31,052 nucleotides of DNA from the NCBI GenBank assembly GCA_026770585.1, contig MU646669.1, positions 106,791 through 137,842 on the forward strand. The letters are read 5' to 3'. The notes below the pieces were generated by a model. That model searched no databases. It saw only the letters and a list, made by a program, of their open reading frames with translations, and had not been told where the DNA came from. Shown here piece after piece: positions 309 through 22,784 of the stretch (its first letter is position 1; each line of letters begins with the position of its first letter). A program made the translations under genes and the position numbers. Source of the stretch: Baffinella frigidus. Its lineage: Eukaryota; Cryptophyceae; Cryptomonadales; Baffinellaceae.

Positions 309-374
309 GCTGAGCTGGAGACGCGCAGCCGGGACTACACGGCGATGGAGGCCCAGGTCGTCGAGCTCGAGCAG
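309..374 (+). CDS. Coiled-coil gene, exon 1 of those visible
   Basis: Phase 0 to 0, 22 codons, begins [10 protein letters not shown] and ends VVELEQ. Acceptor ttgacag, donor GTCCTG. Four copies of its last bases plus donor follow in the intron at 496, 596, 724 and 824. Earlier exons must lie upstream of the window. Confidence 0.8.
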
Positions 375-439
375 GTCCTGCACCCTGACCCGCACCCCTG
401 CACGCTGAGCCTCGCACCCTGCACCCTCGACCCTCGACC

Positions 440-478
<39 letters not shown>

Positions 479-674
479 ATTCTGAACCCTACACACGAGC
501 AGGTCCTGCACCCTGACCCGAACCCCTGCATGCTGAGCCTCGAACCCTGCACCCTCGACCCTCAACCCTCAACCCTCAACTCTGAACCCTACACACGAGC
601 AGGTCCTGTACCCTGGCCCGAACCCCTGCACGCTGAGCCTCGAACCCTGCACCTTCGACCCTCAACCCTTAACC

Positions 675-706
<32 letters not shown>

Positions 707-3700
707 ACTCTGAACCCTACACACGAGCAGGTCCTGCACCCTGACCCGTACCCCTGCACGCTGAGCCTCGAACCCTGCACCCTCGACCCTCAGCCCTCAA
801 CCCTCAACTCTGAACCCTACGCACGAGCAGGTCCTGCACCCTACACCCTACGAACAAAACTCGAAACTCTGAACCCTGAACTCTTTACCCTCCAGACGCC
901 CACGCGAGAACCCAAACACCACACCCGAGCCACACGAGGCTACCTTTGAGAACAGAATAAATGTCGATTGTAAACGTGTGTAGTAATTTTCAGGTGAAAA
1001 GCAGCGACTTTACACAGGTCCGACCGCTCAGCGGGCGGAAACGTGATCATTTGCCCACAAGACTTTACAAGTCCGTTTTATTCTGTTCGCCTGGGTAGCC
1101 TCGTGTGGAACCCCCGGCTTCTCCACTTGAGATCAAGCCCTAAAACCGAAAACCGATACACCTATACCCCCCCAAAAAATCCCCAAACCCACACCCCAAA
1201 CCCTGACCAACCAACCCCACACCCTAAATCCTCAACCCACCGCACCCTAAATCCTCCGCTCGCACACTTCCACAGGTGGGCGGGGCGAAGGCGAAGGCGG
1301 AGAACGCGCAGCTCACCGAGGCGATGGAGGCGCTCCGCAAGCAGGCATTTCCCCTCCATCCTTCACCCCCCCCCCGAACCCGCACGCCCTACAACCTAAC
1401 CTCTATGCCCTATACCCTGCACCCTCGAATCCCAAACATCTTTACACCTAAACCCCAGAAGTTTACAGAGGCGATGGCAGCGCTCCGCAAGCATTTCCTG
1501 GCATTTCCTCAAACCTTCCACCCCAAACCCTGAACCCAGGAACCCCTGTACCCCCAACCCCCAACCCTAGAAGCCAACCCCTGAACTTTACACCCTACAC
1601 CCCCGAATCGTAGAAGCTAACCCCTATCCCAACCTATCGTTCGCAAGCAGGCCTGCCCCCACACCTCACACCCCACACACCCTGAACCCCCAAACCCTAG
1701 AGAAGCCAACCCCAAATACCCACACCCCAACCCTCAACCCCTTTCCCCCCAACCCCCCAAACCCCAAAACCTTCACCACCAAACCCTAACCCCCAAACCC
1801 TTCACCACCAAACCCCAACCCCAAAACCCGTGACCTCCAAACTCCACACCCTGCCCCCCAAACCCTTCATCCCCAAACGCTACACGCGAACCCCTCACCC
1901 CTCCGCCCTCCCGGCAGGCGGACACGGTGGGGGCGGAGCGGACGCTGGTACAGAACGCGCTGCAGATCTCCGAGGAGGAGAAGCACCGCCTCGACTCCTC
2001 GTGCGTGCAGGTCCCGCAGCCCTACGCCCTAAACCCCACACCCTAAACCGTGCACCCTGCACCTTACACCCCAAACCCCAACCCCCTAAAACCTCCCCCC
2101 TAAACCCTACATCATAAACCCTTACACCTACCGTGAGACGCTAACCCCCGACGCCCAAACCCCAAAACCCAAATCCCTAACCCCCAGCCCCTAACCCCTA
2201 ACCCCCAAACCCTAACCACCAACCACTCGCCCCTAACACCAAACCCCTCGAGCAGCTCAAGAAGGACGTCAAGGCGGCCGACGACAACGTCAAGCGCCTC
2301 TCCTCCGAGGTCACGCCTCCTCATCTCCACGCAGCGCGTGCTGCTCAGGCTCACGGCGTGTAGGCCAGGCGGGGCGGGATGCTGACGTGTCACTGTCTTG
2401 ACAGCCTCACTCGCACCCGGACTGAAAGTACTAGAGGTAAAAGTGTATGACAAGGCACGGCCAGGATGTACCAGGAAAAAGTACAATTGTACTTTTACGC
2501 CAGATCTGGCGGATATGGAGTGCATTCCTGGTACAAACCGGACGTGTCTTACAACCCTATTGTAGGAAATCCCTAGGGACCTAGGAAGTTCCTATGGGGG
2601 GGGTGAATAGATGGACTCGTAGTATTTTAAGTCCGGGTGCGTCTCTTCCTCTGAACGCAGAGCTACTTGCCGCTACCGAGCGAGGACGGGACACGATTTT
2701 AAAAACTTTATCCTGAATCCTGAAGGAAATGGACTTTTAAAATGAAAAACCAGGACCGGAATCCCGGTCCTGGCTGTCTTATATGTGCCGAGTTGTCTCG
2801 ACAGCGGCTCTGTCTCTGTGTGGGCCCACCAGTTTGTTGAAACCGGGCGCTTTCCCGCTTCAAAGTTGACAGGTGTGTCGCTCACACCCAGCATGGCGAC
2901 TCAAGCATAGTCTGTCAACCCGAGTACGGCAGAGCTAGTCACTCACGCGCATGGTTCGAGCTCGGGCGGGGCTAACGTATCAATGGCTGAAAGGGATGCT
3001 GGCGTTTCAATGTCTCAAAAGGGCGATATGCTGACGTGTCAATGGCTCACAAGGATGCTGACGTGGCAATGGCTCCACAGGTGGATACGCTGACGTGTCA
3101 ATGGCTCAAGAGGACGCTGACGTGTGAATGTTTTGGTGCAGGTGGAGACGCTGACGAACGAGCTGGCGGAGAACACGGACAAGCACTCGAGCAAGGAGTC
3201 GCAGGTCGAGGCGCTCAAGAACCAGCTCACCAAGGTCTGCCTCGCCACCCCGCAACCCGAAACCCGAAAGAGCCAGAAACAGGGAACCCGAACACCGGAA
3301 CCCGGAACCCGAAACGCGGAACACGGAACCCGAAGCTTGGAACCCGGAACCCGGAACCCGGATCCCGGATCCCAGATCCCGAACGAGCCAGCTCACCAAG
3401 GATTGCCTTCCGGAACCCGAAACACGAAACCCGAAACCCGAAACCTGAAGCCCGAAACAAGTCCGAAACACGCCCAAAGCCCGAAACCTGAAACCCGACA
3501 TCCAAAAGAGCCAGCTCACCAAGGTGCCTACCTGAAACACGAGACACGGGACACGGAACACGGAACCCGAAACCCGCCCGAAACCCGAAACCCGAAAGAG
3601 CCAGCTCACCGAAGAAACGCACTAGCGCTTCGATCCAGCAGCATGGACAAATGCACAACCTTACTAGGTGCGCCGGTACTTGTCCGTTGCCGGCGTCTCA

Positions 3701-6700
3701 TTCCGTGTTGTGCAAGACGAACACCTCCCACTAGGCCGCGTGTGGCGCGCTGATACCGCGCCAGCGTTTCGCTTCTGCGCACCCGGTTCGCTTGACAAGT
3801 GGCGGCCCCGGGTGACCATGGTTCAGAGGAGAACATTCCAGCTGTCGATTCTAGGGTAATTCAGTGTGATACCGCGCCTTCGCACCGCTTCTGCGCACCC
3901 GGTTCGCTTGATACGTGGCGGCCCCGGGTGACTATGGTTCAGAGGAGAACATTCAACCCTGAAAACTCGTTGGTTCTTGAGTAGTTCTTTGGCGTCGATT
4001 CTAGAGTAGTTGAGGGTGATACCGCGCCTGCTCACTGCCTCGGCACACCTGGTTCGCTTGTGTAAGTGGCGGCCCCGGGTGACTATGGTTCAGAGGAGAA
4101 CATTCCATCCCGCAAACTCGTTGGTTCTTGAGTAATACTTTGGCGCGCTGATACCGCGCGCCTTCGTTCTGCTTCGGCGCACCCGCCCCGCTTGATACCT
4201 AAACCTTAAACCTTCAAACCTAAACCCTAAACCCTAAACCCTAAACCCTAAACCCTAAACTCTAAACCCTAAACAATACACCCTCAGCCCTAAACCCTAA
4301 ATCCTAAACCCTAAACCCTACACTCCACACCCCCTGAACCCTACACCCTGCACCCTACACCCTCAGCCCTAAATCATAAACCATACACCATGCACTGTAA
4401 ATCATCAACCATAAACCCTGACCCCCCCCCCGGCAGGTGACGGGGGAGAAGCAGGAGACTCGGAGCAAGCTGGCGGCGCAGCTGGAGCAGGCCCAGAACG
4501 ACCTCAAGTCCCGGTCCCGCGCGGCGCAGCGCTCTCGCGGTTGACTGAACCGGGCAGGGTTAGTACCAGGACGGCACCTGGTCGTGTCCTCATCAGTACC
4601 AGGATGCTCCCTAATCAGTCAACTGCTCCCGGCAGGTGACGGGGGAGAAGCAGGAGACGCAGAGCAAGCTGGCGGCGCAGCTGGAGCAGGCGCACAACGA
4701 CCTCGAGTCCCTCGCACGCAAGTCCGCAGGTTGCGAGCCCCCCCCTCCCACGACCCTACACCCTACACCCTACACCCTGCACCCTGCACCCTACACCCAG
4801 AACCCAAAACCTTAAAGAAAACCAACCCAAACAAACCCAAACAAACCCAACCCAACCCAACCCAACCCAACCCAACCCAACCCAACCCAACCCAACCCAA
4901 CCCAACCCAACCCAACCCAACCCAACCCAACCCCTGAACCCTAGAGCCCAAATCCTGAACTGGAAACCCTAAACTGGAAACACACCCGCAGCTACCATCG
5001 AAGAGCTCGAGGCGAAGCACGAGGAGGTGGCCGCGAAGCTGGCCGACACGGAGGCGGAGAGCAAGAAGCAGCAGGACGACCTCGAGGCCCTCGCGACTGA
5101 GTATAACCCCCCCCCCAAAAAAAACAATCTCCGTGGTGAGAACCTCACCACCGACTAACCAATCCGGTTCTCACCACCGACTAACCAATCCCCCTACCCT
5201 AGACCCTAAACACACCCTAGACCCTACCAAACACGAGACCCTACACCCTAAACCCTAAACCATGAACCCCAAACCCCAAACCCCAAACCCCAAACCCCAA
5301 ACCCTAAACCCCAAACCCTAAAACCCTAAACCCCAAACCCCAAATCAGGCTGGAGGAGGCAGAGAGCCGCGCCAAGGAGGGCTCGTCAAACTCCGAGCAG
5401 GCAAGAAGCCCCTCCCCTCTACTGTGTAGCAGTCTTCCATCATTTGAGCCTTTTAATGGTAGTCAAACTCCGAGCAGGCACGCGCCCCCTCCCCTGTTCT
5501 AGTGTGGAATATGTGTTGAGGGTAAGTATGTGTTACGGTAGCCTGTGTTAGGGTAGGTTCACTGTAGCCACTTGACAACCAGCTAACAGGCTGGTTGTCA
5601 CTATTTTGAGATTTCTAGAGGAGGCAGTGAGCCGCGCCAAGGAGGGCGCGGCAAACTCCGAGCAGGCAAGAAGCAATTCGCTTTCAACTTTAGGGGCGGC
5701 CACTTTAGGATCCGGCTTGATGGGGCCCATCAAGCCTGATTTAGGGCCTGTAGCACTCTCCACGGTTTGAGCTTTTTATGATAGGCTCGTCGAACTCCGA
5801 GCAGGCAAGCGCCCTCTCCAGCCTGATTTAGTGCCTGTAGCGCTCTCCACTTTTGGTGTTTTTTTATGGTAGTCAAACTCCGAGGAGGCAAGAAGCCCCT
5901 CCCCTGTACTAGGGCGAATCGCTTTCAACTTTAGACTCAGGTAACAGGCTGGTTCAGCCGGACTGTAGGACTTGTCATCATTTTGAGTTTTTCTATGACA
6001 CTGTGCCTGCCGTCGTTAGTCGTGCGAGGTAGTGTCGAGTGCGCAGGACCTCTCTCGGCGTGCGTCGTTTGACCGCGCAGAACAATCGCCTTTTCCGGCA
6101 AGATTTGTACTGGATGTCGCCCAGATTCGGGTAATGTCTGGTACAAATCTTTGAGGTGCTGAGTTCCCAAATAAACCCGATCCTTCGAGAGCCTGCTCTG
6201 ACGTGGTCCAGTGAGGAAGCGTACATGGCGGCCGTGTTTGGTATCCATAACGCTCTCCCGCATGCCAGACACCCTGAATTCGAGGTCTTGATTCCAAAAA
6301 AAAAAGTTTTGCAGGAATTAAAAAATCTCCCCCTCTCGTTTGCAGGAATTAACTAATCTCACGCTCTCTCTCGTTCGCAGGAGTGGATGACGAAGCTCAA
6401 GGACCAGGAGGACAAACTCCGGCGGAAGACCGCCGAGCTCAACGCCGCCGGCGAGCAGGCACGTCCCCCCACGCAACCACGCCCAAGAAACCATAGTTGA
6501 CTAATCAGAGCTTTCTATGTCCACACGGACCCACGATCAAGCGTTGACTAAACACAACCCGCAATCAAGCGTTGGCCGCCGAGCTCAGCGCCGCGGGCGA
6601 GCAGGCTCGTCCCCGCGCGCCCACGAACAAGCAACATATAGTTGACCAATCGGAGCTTTTTTACGTCCCCACGCACCCACGACCAAGCGTTAACTCATCC

Positions 6701-7680: not shown

Positions 7681-7720
<40 letters not shown>

Positions 7721-7812
7721 CCTCCCCTCTCTCTCTGATTCTGACACCAGATTGACCGTACACCCTGAACCCCTTAACCCTACACCCTGAACCCTAAACC
7801 AATCCCTGCACC

Positions 7813-13800: not shown

Positions 13801-14115
13801 TGAACATAAACCCTAAACCGTATACCCTTTTGTTTGCAGGAGGCGAAGATGGAGCGGGAGCGCTCAACCCGCCCCAACCCGACCCTACCTGGCCCTTCCC
13901 AGACCATACACACTCCGTAACACTGGGCTTGTTCTGAGTAGGAGGCGAAGATGGAGCGGGAGGGCCAAAGCCCCCAACCCACCCCAACCCGGCCCTACCT
14001 GGTCTTACCCAGACGATACATTCCGTAACACTGGGCGTGGTGAGTGCAGGAGGCGAAGATGGAGCGGGAGCGGGACGAGCAGAAGAAGAAGTACGATGAC
14101 CTCAAGGTCCCCACC

Positions 14116-14168: not shown

Positions 14169-17100
14169 ACCCCTCAACCCCTCAAACCGAATCACTAATC
14201 CATTATCCATAATCCATAATCTATGATCCTCAAACCTAAGACTGTTAACCCCAACCCCCAAACCAAGGTCCTACACCCTAACTCCTAGCCCGTAAACCGT
14301 GAACCATAAACCCTGAACCCTAACCTCAACCCCTCAACCCGCGAGGCACCCTAGACCCTAGTCCCTAAACCCTAAACCCTAAACCCTCAACCCCTAGACA
14401 CCCAACCCTAACCCCTCAACCCGAAACAGAGCAAGAGCTCGGTTGAGGGTTGGGGGTTGAGGGTTGAGGGTCGAGGGTAGGAACCTTGAGGTCCTCGTAC
14501 TTCTTCTTCGGCTCGTCCCGAGACACCCAAACACCAAACGCCAAACACCAAACACCAAACACCAAACACCAAACAGGGCAAGAGCGACGAGAAGATCCGG
14601 CAGCTCAAGGACGACCTCAACGCCCGCCAGACCGACATCAAGGTCTTTTGACCACTTTCGATTTGTCCCTGAGCCCCCGAAAGTCGGGCACCTCGTTGGT
14701 ACAAATCGAGAAAATCGGGAGGGGGGCAAAAGACCTCAACGCCCCCGCCAGACGGACATCAAGGTCTTTTGCCCACTTTCGATTTGCCCGTGAGCCCCCC
14801 GAATTCGGGCACCCCGCCGGTACAAATCGAGGAAATCGGAGGGTGGTCAAAGGACCGCAACGCCCCCGCCAGAACGGCATCAAGGTCTTTTGACCCCCCC
14901 CCCCCCACCATTTCACTGCTAGCGAAAGTCAACCACCATACATTTTTTGTTCGGATCCTGAAGTATAGGGCCGCTCAACCCCGATTTCCGGCACTTCGCC
15001 GATTTATCTCTCCCAATGCCTCATCCATTAACGCTATTCGCTACCAGGTGCTGACGGAGAGGATCGAGGGGTACAAGACCTCTCTCCCGCTTTCTCTACC
15101 CCCAATCCCTTAACCCTATACTATCTACACACTAATTCCTCGACACTCCGTAAACCGTTATCCGTATACTCTTCCACAGGTCCTGACGGAGCGGATCGAA
15201 GGGTACAAGACGTCCGAGACCTTACGCTCTACGCCCATGGTGGGGGTGATTCAAGCAAAATCTCGCCGCTAGCAGCGCATGTGCCCCCGGCACCCCGCCA
15301 ATTGCTCTCTCCCTCATCCCTCATCCCTCATCCCTCCACCCTTTCTCTCTACCTAATTCATAATCTCTTCACCCTTTCTCTCTCCCCCATCCCTAATCCC
15401 TAATCCCTAATCCCCAATCCCTTACACACCAGGTGTTGACGGAGCGGATCGAGGGGTACACGACCTCTTGGAGACCCTACGCCCTCCCCCCTGCCACCCG
15501 CACTGGCCGCATCTCAACCCTAAACTCTTTATCATCGAGGGGTACACGACGTCGAATCCAATCAATCCGAGCGTGATTTCGAACCGTAAACCGTGTACTT
15601 TTCCACAGGTTCTGACGGAGCGGATCGAGGGGTACAAGACCTCGGAGGCGCGCGCCAACGCCTCGCTCAGCGAACTCAAGTCCCGCCAGGTCACCCCCCA
15701 CACACCTTTATTTATTTATGCATGCACTCGTTCATTTATTCATTTTTTCATTCATTCATTCATGAGTTCGCTCAGCGAACTCAAGTCCCGCCAGGTCACC
15801 CCCCACATCCATTTATTCCGCGTTGATGCACTTATTTATTTATTTATTTATTTGGTGGGATCGCAAACCAACGTGGCGGCCATTGCACCCTCCGCGCCGA
15901 TCACTCGCGTTTATTTATTTACTTTTTAATTTATTTATCAAACCCCTCCACCCCAAACGCTAGACCCCAAACCCCAAACCCTCGACAGTCGGAGGAGAGG
16001 GAGAACATCTCGGTGCAGCTCAAGGGCATCAAGGACGCCCTCTCCATCTCCCAGAAGGTCCCCTCACGCTAAACCCCAAACCCTAAACCCTAGTTCCTGC
16101 CCGTCCCGCCCGTGCCCCGAACCCTAAATCATGAACCCTAAACCCTAAACCCTAAACCCTAAACCCTAAACCCTAAACCCTAAACCCTAAACCCTCACCA
16201 ACAAACGGCTGGACCTGAACGACCATGTTCCCTCACCATGAACCTGAAACTCTGAAACCCTGCACCTGAAACCCTGCACCCGAAACCCTCAACCCTCAAC
16301 CCTCAATCCTGTATTCTGAACCCTCAACCCTGAACCCGAAACGCAGGAGCTTGCGGACGAGAGGAGCGAGCACCAGATGACCAAGCTGCGTTCAGAGAAG
16401 CAGGCACGCCCCTTCCCCACACACACGGTGGACTACGAACCTCGGAAAGTGTTGAGTCTCGGGTTCTCGTGTAGTGAAGGTGACCAAGCTGCGTTCAGAG
16501 AAGCAGGCGAGCCTCACCCCACCCAATGTGCTTCGGCGGAGATTTCGACCGTAACTCTGGGTGAAATGCCGGTTAGTAAGATGTCTTTTTGCCGAGCAAA
16601 TCTTGATTAGCGGCTCGAAAATAGATGGGCCGATCTGCGAAGCCCGCAGAGTGGCGCCCCCCCTCTTCTTCTTCCGAATCGCTGAGTGTACCGCGCCCGG
16701 ATCCGGGCAACTACAAGAATCCGATGGCTCCAGTAACAATACAAGATGGTGGACTGTCATCACGTCCCGACTTTTCCTTGTCTCCTGCTCGACTAGCGCG
16801 TGCCCCACTGCCCCCTCTTGAGCCTGAGCTTGCGCATGAGCATGAGCTCAAAGGATGCTAACGCCGCGAGCGGGGCACAGGAGGAGTGGGACCGGAAAGA
16901 GCTGGCGAACCTCAAGGAGGAGATCGCCGACAAGAAGAAGCTCATGGAGGTCTGTTCCTAACACTCGTACATATATATATATATATATATCAGTGGTGTA
17001 TATATACATATATATGTCCACACAGTGAGCCACGAGGGGATCTCGTGAATGGCCCATTCGTGAATAATTCAAGCGCGTGGAGGTGCAGAGGGGGGGGGGA

Positions 17101-20100
17101 GCGGGGGTGCATGTCGACCTATGCGCATCTTTTGGACCTAGAGTAGGGGCAATCAGGGTGACCGGGCCCACACACACGCAAGTCACAAATAAGCGCGGGG
17201 TTTGACCACTTTGATAACCGTGGGATTTGACCAACGGGATTTGACCACTTCGACATTTGACCAGTGCGCAAACGGGGGCTAGCGAGAGTGGACCTGCGGA
17301 CGACGTTTCGTGCGATTTTGTACTGGACTGCTCAACCTATACGTCTTAAGTCACATGTGGTTCAGGAGGTTCAGTAGGCTCAACCCTAAACCCTAAACCC
17401 TAAGCCTTAGACCCTCAACCCTGAGCCCCAAACCCTAAACCCTCACAGGCTAAACCCTGAACCATAAACCCTAAGCCATAAGCCCTAAACCCTGACAGGC
17501 GATGATCTCGAAGGACATCTACAAGCGCGACATGGACTCGCACAAGGGCCAGCACCAGGTGCCCTATTCTCCCCTTCCCACCACACAGCGGACTTCGAAG
17601 GGGTTTCGAATAACCCGTCAGCGATAAGACCTACGACCCTACGGTAGGCAATCCGTAGGGACATAAGGGGGGTTCCTACGCAGCGGACACCCCACACAGC
17701 GGAGAGCATGTGTGGGAGATTGGCTTCACATTTGCCCCTGGGTTGCCTCCAGGGTGGCTTCCTCCTGTCAAATCCCGGCGCCTACCCTGCCCCCCCCACA
17801 CACACAGCCCTGACACAGCCCTGGCACAGACTCTTCCCCCTCTCCCCCCATTCTATCACCCCCCCCCCCCCCCCCCCTCCCCGCTGCATATCGTGCTGGT
17901 GAATAATTGTATAGTGCTGGCTAACAGTATTATAGTGTTGACTAGTAGTAGTGTAGGCTGACTAGTAGTATTATAGTGCTGACTAATAGTATTTTAGTTC
18001 TGACTAATAGTAGTATATGCTGACTAGTATTGTTATAGTGCAAGACGAATAGTATTATAGTGCTGACGAGTATCCCCCGTAGGCGGCGGTGCAGGAGCTG
18101 CTGCGAGAGAGGGAGGCTGACTAATAGTGTTATAGTGCTGACTTATAGTATGATAGTGCTGAATAATAGTACTAAAGTGCTGACTCATACTATTATACTG
18201 CTGACTAATACTATTATACTGCGGACTAATACCATTATAGTGCTGACTTATAGAAGTAAAGTGCTGACAAATAGTATTATAGTTCTGACTCATCGTGTCC
18301 CCCGCAGGCGGCGGTGCAGGAGCTGCTGCGAGAGAGGGAGGCTGACTAATAGTGATATAGTGCTGACTAATAGTATTATAGTATCGACTAATAGTGTTAT
18401 AGTGCTGGCTAATACTATTATAGTTTATAGTGTTGACTCAAAGCATTATAGTGCTGAATAGTAGTATTACAGTGCTGAATAATACCATTATAGTGCTGAC
18501 TCATACCATCCCTCGCAGGCGGCGGTGCAGGAGCTGCTGCGAGAGAGGGAGGCTGACTAATAGTGTTATAGTGCTGACCGATATTATTATAGTGCTGCCT
18601 AATATTATTATGGTGCTGACTAATAGTATTATAGTGATGATAGTATTGTAGTGCTGACTAATAGTGGTGCATTGCTGACTAATACCATTATAGTGCTGAC
18701 TAATTCCATTTTTTTGCTGACGAACCGTATCCCCGCGCAGGCGGCGGTGCAGGAGCTGCTGCGAGAGAGGGAGGCTGAGAAGATCAAGCTGGAAGCGGAG
18801 CGCCAGAAGGTCGAGGAGGTACGCGCTCCCCCTAAACCCGAAACCCGAAACCTTAAACCCTAAACCCTAAACCCTAAACCCTAAACCCTAAACCCTAAGC
18901 CCTCGCCTCAGACTGCTAAACCCTAAACCCTAAACCCTAAACCCCAAACCCTGAACCCTAAACCCTGAACCCTAAACCCTAAACCCTGAACCCTGAACCC
19001 TGAACCCGAACCGCAGGAGCTGGTCAAGTTGCGCGCGGAGGTGAAGAAGGCGCAGACGGAGGGGGTACTCCCCTAAACCCTAAACCCCCGATCCTAAATC
19101 ACGAACCCTACATCCCATCCCGAACCCTAACTCCCAGACCCTTCATCCCAAATCCCAAACCCTAAAACCCAAACCCTAAACACTAAACCCTAAACCCCAA
19201 GACCTAAGCCCTAAGCCCTGAACCCCAAACAAAAAAACAAAACAAAAACAATATATATATATGTATATATATATATATACAAATATATATATACATATAT
19301 ATATATGTATATATATGTTGACCTATAATAAAAAAAATAAAAACCTAAACCCTCACCTCGGACGCAGGTAATGACAGACTCGAAGCAGAAGGAGTTCGCG
19401 AAGCTGCAGGAGACGACCGAGCGCGTCTCCAAGGAGCTCAACGACTCCAAGGCCGAGGTGACCGTCCATTAGTAAATTCAATTAGGCCTCCTAGTAAATT
19501 CAATTAGGCCTCCTAATTAGGGCTTAGTAAATTCAATTAGGCCTCCTAATTAAATGACAACGCCAATTAAGGAGCTCAACGACTCCGAGGCCGAGGTCAA
19601 CATCCATCAGTTAAGGCATAGCAAATTCAATTATAGGGCATAGTAAATTCAATTAGGCCTCCTCATCAAACGAAAACGCTAATTAGACGGAGACGACCGA
19701 GCGCGTCTCCAAGGAGCTCAACGACTCCAAGGCCGAGGTCAACGTCCGTCAGTAAATTCAATTAGGCCTCCTAATCAGGGCATAGGAAATTCGATTAGGC
19801 CTCCTAATTAAATGAAAACGCTCGTTCAGGAGCCCAACGACTCCAAGGCCGATGCCAGAATCCAGCCTGGCATCGTGTTCATAGGGCAACGTCGTGAAAA
19901 TCGGCCCTGACCCCTGAACCTCAAACCCTGCGCCCTGAACTCTAAGCTCTGAGCCCTAACCCCCTGGATCTTACAACCTGAGGCGTAAACCTTGAACCCT
20001 GCAGATCGACGCGTTGAAGAAGGGCCCCTTTTTTTACCAGAAGGGCCCCTCTTGATGACGGGAGGGGCCCTTTGGCTGACAAAGGGGGCCCTTTGAACGA

Positions 20101-20744
20101 CGAAATGGGCCCGTTTGATGACAAAAGGGGCCCTTTGGCTGACTTTGGCTGACAGAGGGGGCCCTGTACAGATCGACGCGATGAAGAAGGGGTTGAAGAA
20201 GGGCCCCTTTTTCACCAGCAGGGTACCTTTTGATGACAGAATGGGCTCTTTTGATGACAAAAGGGGCCCTTTTGATGACGGGAGGGGCCCTTTGCAGATC
20301 GACGCGATGAAGAAGGGGTTGAAGAAGGGGGATGAGGAGCTCAAGGGCAACAAGCAGTTGATCGAGACCTACACCGAGAAGTTGCGCACCGCCGAAGTGG
20401 TATGTCCCCGGGGCCTAACGAACTAACTAACTCGAGAATCTAGAAATAACTAACTTAACTAGCTAACTAACTAACTAACTAACTGACTAACGCACCGCCG
20501 ATGTGGTATGTCCACGGGTTCGCCTCTAGACAACTAGCTAATTAACTAACTAGCTAACTAACTAACTAACTTAACTAACTAACTCGAGACCTGCTTTGAG
20601 AAGTTGCGCACCGCCGATGTGGTATGTCCACGGGCCCTAACTAACAAAGTAACTCGAGCCTCGAGCCAACTAACTAACTAACTTATCTAACTAGCCATCT
20701 AACTAACTAGCCAACTAACTAACTTCACTAGCTAAGTAAGTAAG

Positions 20745-20777
<33 letters not shown>

Positions 20778-21412
20778 CGAGCCTTACTCCGAGAAGTTGC
20801 GCACCTTCCGATGTGGTATGTCCCCGGGCCCTAACTGACTGATTAACTCGAGCCTCTAGCCAACTAACTAACTAACTTAACTAACTAGCCAGCTAACTAA
20901 CTAGCCAACTAACCAACTTCACTAGCTAACTAATAACTAACTTAACTAACTAACTAACTCAAGCCCTACTCCGAGAAGTTGCGCACCGCCGATGTGGTAT
21001 GTCCCCGGGCCCTAACTGACTAATTAACTCGAGCCTCTAGCCAACTAGTGTGGCCACGCGTCCGCTAAACCCGAAACCCGAAAACCTACACCATAAACCA
21101 TAAACCATAAACCATAAACCATAAACCGCGCGCTGACGCGGCGTGACTGGGGAGCAGGATCGGGAGGAACTGCGGCGGGAGCGTGACGATCTGGACAGCA
21201 AGGTATGCACCCATTACCCCAACCATCAAAAATCAAACATCAAAAATAAAATAAATGATAAATGATAATTAAAACATCAAACATCAAAAAATTCAACATC
21301 AAACATCAACCTTCAACAATCAAACATCAAAAATCAAAAATCAAAAATCAAGCCAAGCCACACACCATACACACCAACCCTTAACCCAACCCCTAAACCA
21401 TACACCCCAACC

Positions 21413-21486
<74 letters not shown>

Positions 21487-22784
21487 ACCCAAACCGCAGG
21501 CGATGAAGCTTGAATTTGAGCTCAAGGGCGTCAAGCAGATGGAGTCGCGCAAGTTTGAGGTTCGAGCCCCGCTCCAACACTTCACCGTTTTCTCAGGTTC
21601 GTATGATCTCGAAAAGTGGTACGTATGATCTCGAAAAGTGTTGCTTCGCTCAACACTTTACTCAAGCGAGCCACGCTCAAGCCTTTTGCTCGAGCGAGCC
21701 ACGCTCAACACTTTTCTCGAGCCAGCAACGCTCAACACTTGAGCGTTTTCTGACTCCGCTCCCGAAGGCGGGGGGGTGTTCAATTGCGAGAGCATACGTA
21801 CCTAAACGCTTCTGTTAGGAGCGTGTGATCTTGCAACGATCTCGCAACGGCTCGAGACTTGAGCGTTTTCTTACTTTCGAGTAACGCGATACTCGACGCT
21901 TTCAAACATAAACCCTAAACCCTAAACGCTGCTTTGCTGGGAGAGTGTGGGGCAATTGAATATTCGTCCGAACTCGCCCTAGTCAGGTCCTAGGGCCCTA
22001 CGGTAGGGTGTGTGAGCCTTCTCTCCACTTACGGGATAGGGTTTGGGGGTTGGATTTGACGTCGGTGCGCGATGTGTGCCCCATCAGGTCAAGATCATGC
22101 ACCTTAAGCCCCAAACGCAACCACCTTACCAAACGCTCACCCGAAACCCGAAACGGTAGGTCCAGATCATGCGGCTACAGAAAACCACGACTTGAAGCGT
22201 CACAACCCCCACCCAAACCTTGACCCTAATCCCAGACGAAAATCCTAACCCTGTTCCCCAAATGATAGGTGGAGATCATGCGTCTCAAGACAGAAAACGA
22301 AGACTTGAAGCGCGCGGAAAAGAAGAAGCAAACCATCGAGCCCAAGCCCGCAGGTCCGCGCCTCAACCCTAACTAAACTCTAACCAAACTCTAACCAAAC
22401 CCTAATTGAACCCTAAACCCTGGACCGTAAACCCTGGGCCGTAAACCCTGAACCTTGAACCCTGAACCCTGTTCAACCCCGGAACCATGTTCAACCCCTG
22501 GACCCTGAACTCTGAGCCCTCAACCCCTCAACCCTAAACCCTAAACCCTAAACCCCAAATCTTTAACCCTTAACCCCAAACCCTCACCCCTAAACCCCAA
22601 ACCCTCACACCTCACCCCTCACCCCTCACCCCTCACCCCTCACCCCTCACCCCTCACCCCTCACCCAGGAGCGGGGGCGGACTCCGGGGGGGCAACGACG
22701 GAGGTGGCGGCGCCCGCGCTGCTCTCGGCGCTTGAGCGCGTGCGCGCGCGCCGCACCACCGCCCAGGGCGGCGGCGCCAAGTAG
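309..22784 (+). CDS. Long coiled-coil protein, 3' part of gene (34 exons, 5' end outside window)
   Basis: Assembled by eye from short GC-rich blocks bounded by AG acceptors and GT or GC donors; all 34 exons join in one frame (about 875 residues) and end at TAG 22782-22784. Of 33 introns, 28 are phase 0; five are not (after exons 6, 7, 15, 17 and 33), and at each the split codon is completed correctly (Ala, Glu, Arg, Met, Gly). The product is rich in Glu, Lys, Ala, Gln, Leu and has no proline until exon 33, which fits an uninterrupted alpha-helical coiled coil; the tail after IEPKPAG is Gly/Ala-rich and ends [14 protein letters not shown] structural, motor-tail or tethering role is possible, but I recognise no catalytic domain and no family. 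Exons occupy about 2.6 kb of 22.5 kb. Donors after exons 2, 8, 9, 19 and 24 are GC. No polyadenylation signal is evident after the stop. Confidence 0.82.
375..850 (+). repeat. Tandem exon-1 junction repeat with CCCTCAA filler
   Basis: Copies of the exon 1 end plus donor (cgagcag then gtcctgcaccc) start at 368 (the true exon), 496, 596, 724 and 824. The spacing alternates 128, 100, 128, 100, so the array is a higher-order repeat of 228 bp. Units differ in the number of CCCTCAA heptamers. Confidence 0.9.
930..1108. mobile_element. MITE-like element with about 32-bp terminal inverted repeats
   Basis: The left end begins ccacacgaggctacc and continues gaacagaataaa; the right end is the reverse complement of nearly the same 32 bases (one run of five differs). 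The body is 179 bp, lower in GC than its surroundings, with no coding capacity. No clear target-site duplication. It sits in intron 1. Confidence 0.75.
1276..1344 (+). CDS. Coiled-coil gene, exon 2
   Basis: Phase 0 to 0, 23 codons, includes [19 protein letters not shown]. Acceptor ttccacag; donor is GC (GCATTT). Decayed copies of the 3' end and donor occur at 1465-1498 and about 1637-1655. Confidence 0.8.
1345..2252 (+). repeat. Introns 2 and 3: C-rich heptamer-like filler
   Basis: Apart from exon 3, this is C/A-rich sequence made of variants of CCCTAAA, CCCCAAA and CCCAACC, all in the same orientation and nearly free of AG. Intron 2 also holds the two exon 2 end copies. Confidence 0.75.
1918..2010 (+). 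CDS. Coiled-coil gene, exon 3
   Basis: Phase 0 to 0, 31 codons, includes [20 protein letters not shown]. Acceptor ccggcag, donor GTCCCG. An earlier donor (GTGCGT at 2001) is possible but would break the frame to exon 4. Confidence 0.78.
2253..2309 (+). CDS. Coiled-coil gene, exon 4
   Basis: Phase 0 to 0, 19 codons ([19 protein letters not shown]), donor GTCACG. The acceptor could be the AG at 2251-2252 or, three bases later, the AG at 2254-2255, a NAGNAG-type choice that changes one residue. Confidence 0.75.
2541..2610. repeat. CCTAGG-type partial palindrome, copy A
   Basis: Contains ccctattgtagg, ccctagggacctagg and a G run. A related segment is at 17630-17690, and the CCTAGG/CTACNGTAGG vocabulary matches the fold-back family at 22986-24902. 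Confidence 0.5.
2669..2830 (+). mobile_element. Dispersed repeat with conserved hairpin, copy A
   Basis: Starts ccgctaccgagcga and contains a perfect 10-bp stem (ccaggaccgg / ccggtcctgg, 4-base loop) and then ctcgacagcgg. It aligns along its length with 30095-30260, and its start and hairpin recur at 9204-9686. Probably a non-autonomous transposon family. Confidence 0.7.
2976..3141 (+). repeat. Tandem repeat before exon 5, including acceptor copies
   Basis: Variants of gctgacgtgtcaatggctca, about 25-33 bp each, repeat up to the exon. One unit (cacaggtggatacgctgacg) is a decayed copy of the exon 5 acceptor and start. Confidence 0.8.
3142..3234 (+). CDS. Coiled-coil gene, exon 5
   Basis: Phase 0 to 0, 31 codons, begins [18 protein letters not shown] and ends NQLTK, donor GTCTGC. 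Three decayed copies of its end follow at 3385, 3508 and 3598; copies of its beginning precede it (about 3078). Confidence 0.83.
3240..3620 (+). repeat. CCCGAAA-type array with three exon 5 end copies
   Basis: Heptamer variants (aacccga, aacccgg) separate copies of gccagctcaccaagg at 3385, 3508 and 3598. The last has lost the donor. Confidence 0.8.
3745..4200 (+). repeat. Minisatellite, four units of 116-150 bp
   Basis: Units start with gataccgcgcc at 3752, 3868, 4018 and 4150, and share ggcggccccgggtgac and ttcagaggagaacattc. It lies within intron 5. No exon similarity seen. Confidence 0.85.
4200..4428 (+). repeat. Interstitial telomere-type CCCTAAA array
   Basis: Several perfect CCCTAAA units at about 4216-4275, then drifted variants (ccctaca, ccctgca, ccataaa). 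In an intron between coding exons, so not a chromosome end. Confidence 0.85.
4437..4539 (+). CDS. Alternative copy of exon 6 (candidate mutually exclusive exon)
   Basis: Near-duplicate of exon 6, 199 bp upstream, with the same start (VTGEKQET, then [10 protein letters not shown]). Its 3' part has diverged but still reaches a possible donor (GTTGAC) in phase 1, so it could splice to exon 7 in frame. Including both copies in tandem would shift the frame because each has length 3n+1. It is either an alternative exon or a decaying duplicate. Confidence 0.5.
4636..4729 (+). CDS. Coiled-coil gene, exon 6
   Basis: Phase 0 to 1, 94 nt, [20 protein letters not shown] then ending ARKSA plus one base. 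Acceptor ctcccggcag, donor GTTGCG. The split codon G|CT (Ala) is completed by exon 7. Confidence 0.83.
4840..4934 (+). repeat. CCCAA pentamer array
   Basis: About 17 nearly perfect tandem copies of aaccc, flanked by heptamer-type sequence, in intron 6. Confidence 0.95.
4992..5100 (+). CDS. Coiled-coil gene, exon 7
   Basis: Phase 1 to 2, 109 nt, [20 protein letters not shown], then [15 protein letters not shown]. Acceptor acccgcag, donor GTATAA. The split GA|G codon (Glu) is completed by exon 8. Confidence 0.85.
5240..5346 (+). repeat. CCCCAAA / CCCTAAA heptamer array
   Basis: Tandem aacccca and aacccta units ending at the exon 8 acceptor. Confidence 0.9.
5349..5400 (+). CDS. Coiled-coil gene, exon 8
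   Basis: Phase 2 to 0, 52 nt, [17 protein letters not shown]. Donor is GC with strong consensus (CAG|GCAAGA). Four copies of the 3' end with the GC donor follow at 5461, 5618-5665 (nearly complete), 5783 and 5871. Confidence 0.84.
5401..5935 (+). repeat. Tandem copies of exon 8 end and GC donor
   Basis: Five occurrences of actccgagcaggca-type junctions counting the exon itself. The copy at 5618-5665 reproduces almost the whole exon but its acceptor is out of phase. Spacers share gcctgatttagggcctgtag and tcgctttcaactttag. Confidence 0.85.
6381..6458 (+). CDS. Coiled-coil gene, exon 9
   Basis: Phase 0 to 0, 26 codons, [20 protein letters not shown] to GEQ; one of only two exons with Trp. GC donor (GCACGT). 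A copy of the end with donor is at 6574-6610. Two copies of the acceptor (tttgcaggaatta) precede it near 6308 and 6340. Confidence 0.85.
6490..6740 (+). repeat. Tandem repeat after exon 9
   Basis: The unit contains gttgactaatcagagctttt, cacgcacccacgaccaagcg and, once, a copy of the exon 9 end with GC donor (6574-6610). Confidence 0.75.
7026..7157 (+). CDS. Coiled-coil gene, exon 10 (longest)
   Basis: Phase 0 to 0, 44 codons, [20 protein letters not shown] through [13 protein letters not shown]. Acceptor aacctgcag, donor GTCCAA. One decayed copy of the 3' end is at 7232-7250. The 18 bases before the exon recur at 30518-30535 before an exon-like block of the second gene. Confidence 0.85.
7158..7540 (+). 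repeat. CCCGAAA/CCCTGAA heptamer filler, intron 10
   Basis: Drifted heptamers (acccgaa, accctga) with one copy of the exon 10 end and donor at 7232-7250. Translations of the opposite strand give GFRV-type repeats, which are artefacts. Confidence 0.85.
7541..7594 (+). CDS. Coiled-coil gene, exon 11
   Basis: Phase 0 to 0, 18 codons ([18 protein letters not shown]). Acceptor ctgaaccag, donor GTCCAC, followed at once by a CT-rich microsatellite. Confidence 0.78.
7600..7740 (+). repeat. CT microsatellite
   Basis: Long CT-dinucleotide tract with occasional CG and TA interruptions directly after the exon 11 donor; a long polypyrimidine tract in the sense strand. Confidence 0.95.
7800..8250 (+). 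repeat. Exon 12 acceptor-side copies with TACACAA heptamers
   Basis: Copies of the acceptor plus exon 12 start at 7866 (16 nt), 7956-8016 (about 60 nt) and 8164-8198 (about 35 nt). Between the last two lies a TACACAA heptamer array (8048-8128). Confidence 0.88.
8251..8334 (+). CDS. Coiled-coil gene, exon 12
   Basis: Phase 0 to 0, 28 codons, [20 protein letters not shown] then AEIAELTK. Acceptor ttcaccag, donor GTATCA. Three shorter 5' copies with acceptor precede it at 7866, 7956-8016 and 8164-8198; the last is the only complete one. Confidence 0.84.
8617..8705 (+). repeat. CCCCAAA heptamer array
   Basis: About a dozen CCCCAAA units ending at the exon 13 acceptor. Confidence 0.93.
8711..8782 (+). 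CDS. Coiled-coil gene, exon 13
   Basis: Phase 0 to 0, 24 codons, [20 protein letters not shown] then AQAK. Acceptor aaaccgcag, donor GTGCTG. A decayed 5' copy with acceptor is at 8551-8582. Confidence 0.82.
8786..8875 (+). mobile_element. Dispersed repeat with GTTGACGGATTTGTACC core, copy 1
   Basis: Shares agttgacggatttgtacc, then a CCA-rich and tcaactta stretch, with 9955-10050, and matches the reverse strand of 26873-26946. Two copies flank exon 14 in the same orientation. Confidence 0.7.
8925..9203 (+). repeat. Tandem repeat before exon 14
   Basis: Three units share gtacagcacacctctt or a variant and ccctgccctcgccc. The segment 9095-9123 is a decayed copy of the exon 14 start (gacaaggcagaggcagagga). 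Confidence 0.75.
9204..9686. mobile_element. MITE-like element with about 26-bp terminal inverted repeats
   Basis: The left end ccgctaccgagcgaagtggg and right end ccctcgctcggtagtgg (inverse) match at about 22 of 26 positions. Near the right end is a perfect 14-bp stem (aaagctgggaccgg / ccggtcccagcttt, loop attc) at 9626-9657. Internal sequence is AT-richer, with no coding capacity. Confidence 0.7.
9690..9776 (+). repeat. CCCCAAA heptamer array
   Basis: About 12 perfect CCCCAAA units inside intron 13. Confidence 0.95.
9843..9920 (+). CDS. Coiled-coil gene, exon 14
   Basis: Phase 0 to 0, 26 codons, [20 protein letters not shown] then ASRRIK. Acceptor ccttccag, donor GTCTAA. A 5' copy lies upstream (9095-9123) and a 3' copy with donor downstream (10065-10118). 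Confidence 0.84.
9955..10055 (+). mobile_element. Dispersed repeat with GTTGACGGATTTGTACC core, copy 2
   Basis: Includes gatttggtgagcccgggctc upstream of the core, which identifies the inverted copy at 26873-26946. It lies immediately before the copy of the exon 14 end. Confidence 0.7.
10545..10633 (+). CDS. Coiled-coil gene, exon 15
   Basis: Phase 0 to 2, 89 nt, [20 protein letters not shown] then KKAEEVSSA. Acceptor cacacag, donor GTAACC. The split CG|G codon (Arg) is completed by exon 16. A near-intact copy of the 3' two thirds with donor is at 10818-10883, and a short inverted piece ends near 10814. Confidence 0.85.
10770..11070 (-). repeat. Filler in inverted (TTAGGG-like) orientation with an inverted exon 15 fragment
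   Basis: The sense strand switches to G-rich heptamers (gggttcg, gggtttc). A 12-bp perfect inverted repeat joins an inverted exon 15 piece (10803-10814) to the direct exon 15 copy (10828-10839). Confidence 0.7.
11169..11244 (+). CDS. Coiled-coil gene, exon 16
   Basis: Phase 2 to 0, 76 nt, [20 protein letters not shown] then ETARK. Acceptor acatgcag, donor GTCCGA. Confidence 0.84.
11263..11368 (+). repeat. CACACG microsatellite
   Basis: Tandem cacacg/cacgca units just after the exon 16 donor. Confidence 0.95.
11500..11894 (+). repeat. Exon 17 acceptor-side copies
   Basis: Two exon 17 starts with acceptor (gctttgcag then tcggrggagc) at 11510 and 11689 precede the complete exon. The second runs 51 bases before breaking into CCCTGAA-type sequence. 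Confidence 0.88.
11895..11977 (+). CDS. Coiled-coil gene, exon 17
   Basis: Phase 0 to 2, 83 nt, [20 protein letters not shown] then RLENEKI. Acceptor ctcgacag; donor GTGAGT, the textbook donor. AT|G (Met) is completed by exon 18. Two 5' copies precede it (11510, 11689-11739) and four 3' copies follow (12055, 12174, 12275, 12444). Confidence 0.87.
11978..12480 (+). repeat. Exon 17 donor-side copies
   Basis: Four copies of cgcctcgagaacgagaagat-type ends with GT donors (12055, 12174, 12275, 12444); two units share the spacer cctgaaacctgggccgta. Confidence 0.88.
12906..12978 (+). CDS. Coiled-coil gene, exon 18
   Basis: Phase 2 to 0, 73 nt, [20 protein letters not shown] then KQLK. Acceptor gagggcag, donor GTCCAA. 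A copy at 13172-13237 has an in-frame TAG and so cannot replace it. Confidence 0.85.
13250..13285 (+). repeat. CCCTAA hexamer array
   Basis: Short run of perfect CCCTAA hexamers, distinct from the heptamers elsewhere, just after the exon 18 copy. Confidence 0.9.
13577..13669 (+). CDS. Coiled-coil gene, exon 19
   Basis: Phase 0 to 0, 31 codons, [20 protein letters not shown] then [11 protein letters not shown]. Acceptor ctctcccag, donor GC (GCACCC). Confidence 0.82.
13723..13787. repeat. Perfect hairpin in intron 19
   Basis: Arms 13735-13751 and 13759-13775 are perfect 17-bp inverted repeats (aaccggatggtgtctat) around a 7-base loop; imperfect arms extend both ends to about 29 bp. It could fold strongly in RNA or be a small fold-back insertion. 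Confidence 0.9.
13840..14049 (+). repeat. Exon 20 acceptor-side tandem, about 100-bp unit
   Basis: Copies of the exon 20 start at 13840, 13942 and the true exon at 14050, with spacers sharing aacccgaccctacctgg and ccgtaacactgggc. Confidence 0.88.
14050..14106 (+). CDS. Coiled-coil gene, exon 20
   Basis: Phase 0 to 0, 19 codons ([19 protein letters not shown]). Acceptor gtgcag, donor GTCCCC. Two 5' copies with acceptor precede it (13840, 13942) and an inverted copy of its end and donor lies at 14441-14520. Confidence 0.84.
14441..14520 (-). repeat. Inverted copy of exon 20 end, donor and intron start
   Basis: The reverse complement matches 14071-14150 with few differences, including gaagaagaagtacga, the donor and the following CCCTCAA filler. 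It is followed by a CACCAAA array (14523-14574). Confidence 0.88.
14577..14642 (+). CDS. Coiled-coil gene, exon 21
   Basis: Phase 0 to 0, 22 codons, [20 protein letters not shown] then IK. Acceptor accaaacag, donor GTCTTT. Two 3' copies with donor follow at 14732-14763 and 14853-14884 with a period of about 120 bp. Confidence 0.84.
14613..14905 (+). repeat. Exon 21 end tandem, about 120-bp unit
   Basis: Three units including the exon. Each unit carries its own inverted repeat (cgatttgt / acaaatcg) flanking a CCC-rich centre. Confidence 0.85.
15048..15608 (+). repeat. Exon 22 acceptor-side copies
   Basis: Exon starts with acceptor at 15048, 15180 and 15433 and a fragment at 15535, with ccctaatcccta filler. 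Confidence 0.85.
15609..15689 (+). CDS. Coiled-coil gene, exon 22
   Basis: Phase 0 to 0, 27 codons, [20 protein letters not shown] then SELKSRQ. Acceptor ttccacag, donor GTCACC. Three 5' copies with acceptor precede it (15048, 15180, 15433) plus a fragment at about 15535; one 3' copy follows (15768-15794). Confidence 0.85.
15700..15940 (+). repeat. TTTA/TTCA tetramer arrays with exon 22 end copy
   Basis: Arrays of ttta and ttca after the donor; a copy of the exon end and donor sits at 15768-15794, then more ttta repeats. A clear AT-rich contrast to the other introns. Confidence 0.88.
15989..16057 (+). CDS. Coiled-coil gene, exon 23
   Basis: Phase 0 to 0, 23 codons, [20 protein letters not shown] then SQK. 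Acceptor ctcgacag, identical through the first codons to exon 17, suggesting an old exon duplication. Donor GTCCCC. Confidence 0.82.
16130..16200 (+). repeat. Interstitial CCCTAAA array
   Basis: Nine or so near-perfect telomere-type heptamers in intron 23. Confidence 0.93.
16347..16403 (+). CDS. Coiled-coil gene, exon 24
   Basis: Phase 0 to 0, 19 codons ([19 protein letters not shown]). GC donor (GCACGC). A 3' copy with GC donor (GCGAGC) is at 16481-16506. Confidence 0.82.
16404..16880 (+). repeat. Intron 24: mostly unique sequence with one exon 24 end copy
   Basis: The copy with GC donor is at 16481-16506. The remainder (about 16510-16880) looks non-repetitive and I see no further exon in it. 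Confidence 0.6.
16881..16949 (+). CDS. Coiled-coil gene, exon 25
   Basis: Phase 0 to 0, 23 codons, [20 protein letters not shown] then LME. Acceptor ggcacag, donor GTCTGT. Confidence 0.83.
16968..17018. repeat. TA microsatellite
   Basis: Two runs of alternating TA around cagtggtg, in intron 25. Confidence 0.95.
17499..17558 (+). CDS. Coiled-coil gene, exon 26
   Basis: Phase 0 to 0, 20 codons ([20 protein letters not shown]). Acceptor cctgacag, donor GTGCCC. Confidence 0.8.
17600..17900 (+). repeat. Intron 26 start: CTACGGTAGG palindrome and C tract
   Basis: 17636-17681 contains accctacggtagg and ttcctac, related to 2541-2610. It is followed by C-rich sequence with an 18-base C run near 17860. 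Confidence 0.6.
17900..18740 (+). repeat. TGCTGACTAATAGTATTATAG satellite with three exon 27 starts
   Basis: About 20-bp drifted units (gctgactaatagtattatag) fill the intron and are broken three times by acceptor plus the first 40 bases of exon 27. The unit contains ctgac and ctaat, which resemble branch-point sequences, and few AG. Confidence 0.9.
18741..18818 (+). CDS. Coiled-coil gene, exon 27
   Basis: Phase 0 to 0, 26 codons, [20 protein letters not shown] then RQKVEE. Acceptor ccgcgcag, donor GTACGC. Three copies of its first 40 bases with acceptor precede it (18083, 18309, 18520), each running into a TGACTAATAG repeat instead of the rest of the exon. Confidence 0.86.
18850..19010 (+). 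repeat. CCCTAAA/CCCTGAA array
   Basis: Telomere-type heptamers fill intron 27 almost end to end. Confidence 0.92.
19017..19064 (+). CDS. Coiled-coil gene, exon 28
   Basis: Phase 0 to 0, 16 codons ([16 protein letters not shown]). Acceptor aaccgcag, donor GTACTC. Confidence 0.82.
19246..19320. repeat. TA-rich microsatellite
   Basis: Alternating TA runs after an A/C-rich stretch, in intron 28. Confidence 0.93.
19368..19457 (+). CDS. Coiled-coil gene, exon 29
   Basis: Phase 0 to 0, 30 codons, [20 protein letters not shown] then [10 protein letters not shown]. Acceptor gacgcag, donor GTGACC. Three 3' copies follow (19567, 19687-19739, about 19830). Confidence 0.84.
19458..19860 (+). repeat. 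Exon 29 end copies with AATTAGGCCTCCTAATT spacer
   Basis: Units of taaattcaattaggcctcct alternate with three copies of the exon end (19567, 19687-19739, 19830). The palindrome aggcct is at the heart of the spacer. Confidence 0.88.
20004..20297 (+). repeat. GGGGCCC palindromic array with exon 30 starts
   Basis: About ten units of tgatgacaaaaggggcccttt type, each centred on gggccc, are interspersed with two partial exon 30 starts (20005, 20172). Confidence 0.9.
20298..20399 (+). CDS. Coiled-coil gene, exon 30
   Basis: Phase 0 to 0, 34 codons, [20 protein letters not shown] then [14 protein letters not shown]. Acceptor tttgcag, donor GTATGT. Two 5' copies precede (20005, 20172) and four 3' copies with donor GTATGT follow (20491, 20598, 20791, 20973). 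Confidence 0.86.
20405..21050 (+). repeat. ACTA(A)C array with exon 30 ends
   Basis: Tetramer taac/ctaa arrays between four copies of the exon 30 end and donor GTATGT. The array is essentially serial CTAAC, the branch-point-like pentamer. Confidence 0.9.
21069..21126 (+). repeat. CCATAAA heptamer array
   Basis: Six tandem ccataaa units before exon 31, a variant of the heptamer theme. Confidence 0.9.
21158..21202 (+). CDS. Coiled-coil gene, exon 31
   Basis: Phase 0 to 0, 15 codons ([15 protein letters not shown]). Acceptor ggagcag, donor GTATGC. Starting three bases earlier (CAG included) is an equally valid choice. Confidence 0.78.
21220..21490 (+). repeat. ATCAAAA then CCCTCAA heptamer arrays
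   Basis: Intron 31 begins with drifted atcaaaa/atcaaac units and ends with about ten perfect CCCTCAA units. Confidence 0.9.
21500..21559 (+). CDS. Coiled-coil gene, exon 32
   Basis: Phase 0 to 0, 20 codons ([20 protein letters not shown]). Acceptor aaccgcag, donor GTTCGA. Confidence 0.82.
21570..22268 (+). repeat. Intron 32: CTCAACACTT repeats and exon 33 starts
   Basis: gtatgatctcgaaaagtg occurs twice and cgctcaacacttttctcgag variants several times (21580-21760). Two decayed exon 33 starts with acceptor are at 22088 and 22160-22200. The palindromic piece tcctagggccctacggtagg is at 21987-22006. Confidence 0.78.
22269..22353 (+). CDS. Coiled-coil gene, exon 33
   Basis: Phase 0 to 1, 85 nt, [20 protein letters not shown] then QTIEPKPA; holds the first prolines of the chain and so marks the end of the coiled coil. 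Acceptor tgatag, donor GTCCGC. Two 5' copies with acceptor precede at 22088 and 22160-22200. Confidence 0.84.
22598..22666 (+). repeat. CCCCTCA heptamer array
   Basis: Nine or so tandem cccctca units ending at the terminal exon acceptor. Confidence 0.93.
22669..22784 (+). CDS. Coiled-coil gene, terminal exon 34 with stop
   Basis: Phase 1, 116 nt including TAG. The first codon G|GA (Gly) is completed from exon 33; 37 further residues, Gly/Ala-rich with a basic end ([19 protein letters not shown]). Acceptor ctcacccag after a CCCCTCA array. Confidence 0.84.

Follow-up and report, generated by a model that had tools for sequence, protein, structure and literature searches.

The window analysed here is a stretch of 31,052 nucleotides from the cryptophyte Baffinella frigidus (assembly GCA_026770585.1, contig MU646669.1, forward-strand positions 106,791 to 137,842). 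Between positions 309 and 22784 its plus strand carries 34 exons, separated by 33 introns, that code for 874 amino acids, with the stop codon at 22782-22784. The exons are short (45-132 nt), while the introns have a median length of 567 nt and are all in phase; 28 are of the GT-AG type and 5 of the 33 have GC donors (GC-AG). The model is identical to P0006, a transcript-derived protein of 1565 residues (sources jgi, mmetsp and eukprot, with an MMETSP transcript name), over 874/874 residues and free of gaps, and P0006 extends a further 691 residues N-terminal of the modelled part. This identity shows the exon model to be correct and P0006 to be free of the exon-edge copies described below. A Pfam scan of the modelled 874 residues found no domain. 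The homologs P0001/P0002 and P0006, however, carry the marks PF02263 and PF02841 (guanylate-binding proteins), and the gene is therefore assigned to the guanylate-binding-protein (GBP) family. Hanusia phi and Guillardia theta are among the few named close relatives, and few gaps are needed to align the relatives' proteins with the model. The assembly comprises 382 Mb in 1364 contigs, and the sampling covered part of this one genome at selected gene families.

The introns are rich in repeats. Telomere-like repeats make up 26-36% of the intron bases of the GBP gene, depending on the definition. Degenerate CCCTAAA repeats account for 26% of the window's intron bases on the coding strand, against 1.2% in the TTTAGGG orientation, and when other loci are read in gene direction, minus-strand genes included, 19 of 20 lean alike (L021-L040; L038 is reversed and L040 nearly even). 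A possible explanation is that CTAAAC resembles a branch site and TTTAGG would be a cryptic acceptor. Two of the four readable contig ends (L049, L050) fall within arrays of CCCTAAA or CCCCAAA, and the assembly may therefore be interrupted by arrays of this kind; no recognisable telomere end was seen at any of the four. In addition, intron 1 contains an element of about 185 bp with inverted ends (930-1115), which occurs at 39 other places at 93-97% identity among 40 genome candidates scored, and a hairpin-forming element (TACAGGGGTACCTCGCTCATAAGAAACCGCC...), with 35 inverted-repeat pairs, is present in several copies 3' of the gene at 22986-24902.

When each exon of the GBP gene was compared with each intron at a threshold of at least 25 bits, the upstream exon was matched in its own downstream intron in 13/33 introns and the downstream exon in the intron before it in 10/33. 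Non-adjacent exon-intron pairs gave 3/1056 matches on the plus strand and 1/1056 on the minus strand, and adjacent pairs on the minus strand gave 2/33 for the upstream and 0/33 for the downstream exon. At 28 bits or more, 20 of the 33 introns hold a copy, and 21 when intron 1 is added, where four junction copies contain just 7 nt of exon 1; the same query has no match in the remaining 32 introns. A sequence-only reading had placed copies in roughly 24 of the 33 introns, and the observation proved real at this lower count. The ten cases which that reading named as clear donor or acceptor copies were all recovered, the intron 1 case consisting mostly of intron sequence, and its prediction that a shuffled control would contain no copies was nearly borne out by 20 dinucleotide shuffles of the introns (donor cases 0/33 each time, acceptor cases at most 1/33). 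The copies are listed in Table 1.

Table 1. The GBP-family gene of the window and the exon-edge copies in its introns (window positions)
Feature	Position	Strand	Remarks
GBP (guanylate-binding-protein) family gene, C-terminal part	309..22784	+	exon model and P0006 identity
Intron 1: four donor-junction copies (7 nt of exon 1 end and donor flank)	495..846	+	100- and 128-bp periods
Intron 2: exon 2 end copy	1465..1493	+	
Intron 5: three short exon 5 end copies	3385..3610	+	23.8-29.2 bits
Acceptor and exon 6 start copy	4437..4512	+	76 nt, 93%
Exon 8 end, four copies	5462..5887	+	5615-5665 covers 51/52 nt of the exon, without AG at the matching place
Exon 9 end and GC donor copy	6576..6604	+	
Acceptor and exon 12 start copies	7956..8186 (7956-8015, 8164-8186)	+	
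Acceptor and exon 13 start copy	8556..8577	+	
Exon 14 start copy	9099..9120	+	
Exon 14 end and donor copy	10064..10116	+	53 nt, 92%; preceding spacer matches a dispersed repeat
Exon 15 end and donor copy	10822..10882	+	61 nt, 97%
Acceptor and exon 17 start copies	11510..11739	+	20 nt; 51 nt at 100%
Exon 17 end and GT donor, four copies	12054..12476	+	27-34 nt
Exon 18 end and donor copy	13171..13237	+	
Acceptor and exon 20 start, two copies	13840..13962	+	100%
Intron 20: exon 20 end, donor and flank, inverted copy	14485..14520 (region 14430-14530)	-	
Exon 21 end and donor, two copies	14732..14884	+	2-nt indel in each
Exon 22 start, four copies	15048..15554	+	one interior (exon 16-36)
Exon 22 end and donor copy	15768..15794	+	
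Exon 24 end and GC donor copy	16478..16506	+	
Acceptor and exon 27 start, three copies	18083..18556	+	38 nt, 100%
Exon 29 end, three copies	19569..19852	+	
Acceptor and exon 30 start, two copies	20005..20203	+	
Exon 30 end and donor, four copies	20491..20996	+	
Exon 33 start, decayed copy	22164..22199	+	

Of the donor-side copies, 20 of 23 are located within the intron's 5' half, and of the acceptor-side copies 14 of 19 within its 3' half, in agreement with the sidedness that had been claimed for them. The exceptions to orientation in this gene are the inverted copy in intron 20, which may point to strand-switching synthesis, and a 16-bp minus-strand match in intron 22. Polarity was further examined in a set of 83 copies (at least 28 bits) drawn from all 34 GBP exons and from 14 of 53 other-gene exons picked for having clear copies, with weak, distant and copy-of-copy cases omitted (both L027 exons, L033, L037 and L032 6269); having been chosen for its copies, this set serves polarity and decay, not frequency. 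The near edge of the exon is present in 68 copies, the far edge in 1, the interior in 12 and both ends in 2. Among the 44 upstream copies, 35 contain the exon start, 9 the interior and 0 the exon end; the 39 downstream copies comprise 33 with the exon end, 3 interior ones, 1 with the start alone and 2 that span the whole modelled exon. Both of the latter are without AG at the matching place, so that 2/83 span an exon and none is a complete one. The median distance between copy and exon is 185 bp. The copying is thus direct and local duplication, and in most copies the duplicated segment crosses the exon-intron boundary. Because the polarity follows from geometry and splicing, it proves local duplication and not special machinery.

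The pattern extends beyond the window, as copies are also found in kinesin, dynein and chaperonin genes. These were sampled as 20 stretches of 10 kb at matches to the chaperonin, kinesin and dynein heavy chain families, a non-random choice in which 14/20 stretches contain some N. Exon edges were taken from a gene finder trained on the window, and 53 predicted exons that overlap a family match in frame were retained, one of which (L032 6269) probably represents a copy. On the window the gene finder recovered 30/34 exons exactly and made 38 other calls, of which 4 misplace the borders of real exons and about 31 lie at copies. Within 1.5 kb of the 53 exons there are 44 plus-strand copies at 28 bits or more, at 16/53 exons and spread over 10/20 loci, where 0.16 would be expected from stretches with unrelated genes. 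The minus strand over the same distance yielded 0 copies at 28 bits, and at 25 bits a single minus-strand match was found near an other-gene exon (L022). In the CCT alpha chaperonin gene (L036), whose 18-exon model equals the transcript-derived protein P0121 over 552/552 residues, 5/17 introns contain copies, the six matches being five near-edge and one interior; non-adjacent pairs gave 0/272 and cross-gene controls 1/594 and 1/578. The density of copies is therefore higher in the GBP gene (21/33 introns). Neither of the outcomes that would have spoken against the sequence-only reading, namely copies in this gene only or copies on both sides at random, was encountered in the sampled part of the genome.

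In several arrays the whole unit, intron part included, is repeated (the exon 17, exon 30 and exon 29 donors and the L021 kinesin exons), with unit sizes of about 110-270 bp. Within arrays, identity is 84-100% for the exon parts and 35-91% for the intron parts. In the exon 27 array, for example, 228/228 exon bases are identical over six pairs, against 75-80% for the intron. In well-alignable units the two parts are closer: one pair of the exon 17 donor array has 91% identity over 110 nt of intron and 26/27 matches (96%) in the exon part, and an exon 30 pair shows 90% and 84%, respectively. A flank test was applied to the 66 junction-reaching copies, 17/83 being omitted because the edge was not reached or the flank was absent. 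Intron flank is common to the copy and the real site beyond chance in 30/66 copies, and in the other 36/66 the exon part is matched with little beyond the splice dinucleotide. For the 33 window copies with an indel-free alignment up to the edge, an ungapped comparison gives matches at intron positions 1 and 2 in 33/33, at positions 3-13 in about 0.4-0.8 and later in about 0.3-0.55, so that the identity of copy and exon falls off at the splice site. The exon 17 acceptor copy, for instance, has 51/51 exon bases identical, while a 155-nt telomere-like stretch, unlike the copy's own flank, precedes the real acceptor. Loss of the flank with age was rejected as an explanation, as exon-part divergence is similar in copies without and with a shared flank (0.083 vs 0.065, p 0.16). 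Plain tandem duplication is consequently not enough. Duplication with filler between the copies fits the unshared flanks best, the alternative being a quick replacement of intron sequence beside splice sites.

Taken together, the introns of the genes studied hold serial exon-edge copies, most of them with the splice dinucleotide, that are absent from two transcript-derived proteins, and we consider it likely that they arose by repeated small duplications of exon-intron junctions hidden by splicing. A duplication over an exon end and its donor would place a second exon tail within the intron, and one over an acceptor and exon start would do the same with a second exon head. If the sole site still flanking a whole exon remains in use, the mRNA would be unchanged and junction duplications would thus be tolerated, while duplications of whole exons or within exons would probably be removed by selection. 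Tolerated events of this type would yield the polarity and add about 110-270 bp per unit. The duplications themselves may be products of break repair involving either fill-in synthesis or template switching, and the 36 copies with no shared flank would then be duplications with filler. Exon edges would also be hit more often than intron interiors, a break-prone exon border being one candidate cause. The tandem junction duplication proposed from sequence alone accordingly accounts for the 30/66 copies with a shared flank and falls short for the 36/66 with none, whose exon parts are equally old.

The further claim, that introns generally expand in this way, goes beyond what the data show. Stretches running from an exon edge to the outermost of its copies account for 39% of the intron sequence in the GBP gene but 17% in the chaperonin gene, and telomere-like repeats contribute their own share, as given above. 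Exon-derived sequence itself amounts to 7% of GBP-gene intron bases. Copy number rises with intron length (rho 0.69, p 9e-6), although longer introns also give more room.

Small tandem duplications might instead occur at random everywhere in introns, with no preference for edges, those at edges merely standing out through a constrained partner and a non-repetitive exon part. Geometry alone would produce near-edge polarity, and the introns are not only repeat-rich (short tandem repeats, masked before pairs were counted, cover 40% of the gene span) but often faster-diverging, which makes purely intronic duplicates harder to see. Nevertheless, 61 of the 67 direct-repeat pairs at 32 bits or more that are left in the GBP gene after masking involve exon-derived sequence, and 20 edge families stand against 3 purely intronic clusters. 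This contrast shrinks at lower thresholds (22 vs 7 at 28 bits and 22 vs 9 at 25 bits), and some intronic clusters sit inside edge arrays. Under uniform tolerated duplication, edges would account for a share of 0.18-0.25, rising to 0.30-0.39 if the detectability of intronic duplicates were halved. In this one gene the edge excess is significant against 0.25 (p 7e-10, 1e-8 and 1e-7 at 32, 28 and 25 bits, respectively) as well as against 0.39 (p 3e-6, 6e-5 and 3e-4). We therefore regard random duplication without edge preference as doubtful, while leaving it an appreciable weight.

The edge excess may mean either that edges are hit more often, or that exon-derived DNA lasts longer in introns, or that it is easier to see. 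A bolder form of the first option, to which we give slightly more credit than to random duplication and which is put forward tentatively, is that exon borders are duplication hot spots, that a process starting or stopping at the splice site re-copies the edges, and that splicing shelters a genome-wide lengthening of genes in which the proteins stay unchanged. GC skew flips its sign at acceptors, and at donors it passes from mildly to strongly negative; that R-loops confined to exons cause breaks at the borders is an idea only.

Longer persistence would imply that exon-derived DNA is retained, through gene conversion with the real exon or some function of the copies, while the intron around it turns over. 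The higher identity of exon parts than of intron parts in arrays, the fall of identity at the splice site and a third-position excess in the other genes are in line with this. Changes unique to the copies are distributed over codon positions one, two and three as 7/7/5 in the GBP gene and 17/15/31 in the other genes, and those unique to the real exon as 1/0/3 and 0/0/8. We read these figures to mean that copies in the GBP gene decay freely and unused while the real exon drifts at silent sites; coding constraint on the copies is unsupported there, and 6/6 indels in copies are frameshifts. The main result against free decay is the distribution of all differences between copy and exon (52/52/176), whose third-position excess goes beyond the 1:1:2 expected of a neutral copy of a single date and a constrained exon. 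The copies may be snapshots of the exon taken at different times, which fits this excess without settling it. As alignable intron parts can equal exon parts (the exon 17 and exon 30 pairs) and the copies of the GBP gene change at all three positions, retention appears unlikely as the source of the pattern. A gradient of age with distance from the exon was also considered and set aside, as nearer copies tend but weakly to be younger (37 to 22 pairs, permutation p 0.06), a trend that is gone over all copies (rho 0.08).

The sequence between copies bears on a third possibility, that the spacers are mobile, introner-like elements inserting at exon edges and the exon copy an unusually long target duplication. 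In the 36/66 copies with no shared flank the arrangement does look like edge, new spacer, edge, and a dispersed repeat present at 15 other loci of the sampled sequence matches the exon 14 spacer. The other nine of ten spacers examined, however, were read as showing telomere-like, tandem or short matches, and copies of one exon vary in length. Target duplications of 20-80 nt and of varying length would be unusual for a transposase, and insertion of mobile elements is accordingly judged quite improbable. The idea that microhomology at outer junctions primes a telomere-like filler was rejected: telomere-like sequence beside 68 outer junctions shows no enrichment (0.34 of 28 nt vs 0.355 of window intron bases), and no heptamer-phase microhomology was found (p 0.19). 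Two further features were noted in the intron sequence. Near 7990-8020 of L024 the end of a copy appears by eye to run into its own reverse complement (AAAGCGCCC...GGGCGCTTT), possibly through fold-back copying. Furthermore, a motif near ACACAGCGGACTTCGAAGGGG (at most 5 mismatches) is dispersed over 20 places in 223 kb, where one shuffle gave 1 (window 17583; L002, L006, L008, L022-L026, L029, L032 and L035), and lies inside spacers 3' of donors of L022 and L035 exons.

That junction duplications are hidden by splicing, as the preferred reading holds, is consistent with the transcript evidence. No exon-edge copy occurs in the transcript-derived P0006 or P0121 (one protein per gene), both of which use just the site adjoining the complete exon, as the sequence-only reading had supposed. 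Most copies do keep GT, GC or AG, as would be expected of alternative splice sites or exons that give isoforms or regulate by truncated messages. Even so, 31 of 38 window copies would bring in a stop if spliced in and 3/38 are in frame without one, and copy sites score below real ones on a matrix built from the real sites (donor medians 4.4 vs 5.8, acceptor 3.9 vs 5.7), which leaves regular use of the copies very improbable, although minor use may occur. An assembly artefact of collapsed or repeated stretches, although conceivable in a repeat-rich genome with contig ends in heptamer arrays, can practically be dismissed given the many substitutions in the copies, their stop at the near edge, the many contigs involved and the exact match of the exon models to the transcript proteins (874/874 and 552/552).

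Intron lengthening is usually credited to mobile elements and slippage. Introner elements can bring about mass intron change by added sequence, and that sequence is common to different genes. The introns described here are similarly changed en masse by added sequence, but the copies are local and exon-derived, and the same family was not seen in introns of unrelated genes (3/1056 non-adjacent pairs and 1/594 and 1/578 cross-gene). In AGGT models of intron gain, the direct duplication of an exon-internal AGGT supplies both GT and AG, and patch-mediated break repair in plants is a related duplication route. Both the AGGT models and the present copies involve direct duplication, with the difference that here the segment reaches over an existing splice site.

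Such AGGT-type models are named in PMC4974935, whose account of the potato RdRp gene describes one case of a new intron formed when a tandem duplication spanned an intron-exon boundary. As that case is presented there, the likeness is close: a border-spanning duplication, an exon part turned intronic and splicing signals taken from the parent junction. The potato case is a single event that formed a new intron, whereas here copies are serial, lie on both sides of exons and occur in several genes, a comparison that concerns the duplications and leaves exon number aside. PMC8355091 deals with small tandem duplications that form when CST-Pol alpha-primase fills in break ends, and also names earlier human and plant work. 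The duplications in that account are short, direct and near breaks, and those described here are likewise direct and short. The present units, known from sequence alone, differ from what is described there in reaching about 270 bp, in recurring at the same place and in clustering at exon edges. Side-specific exon-edge copies as a general genome feature were not found in the open-access literature. The type of event is thus known, and its serial, two-sided occurrence in several genes is new as far as the literature searched reaches.

These findings carry a warning for annotation, as a simple gene finder called many of the copies as exons. They also provide a natural setting in which to test how the spliceosome selects the site adjoining a complete exon among near-identical sites, and whether breakage is more frequent at exon borders. 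Part of the growth of these introns is written as copies of the neighbouring exons, probably of different dates, and the order and rate of intron growth may therefore be readable from one genome.
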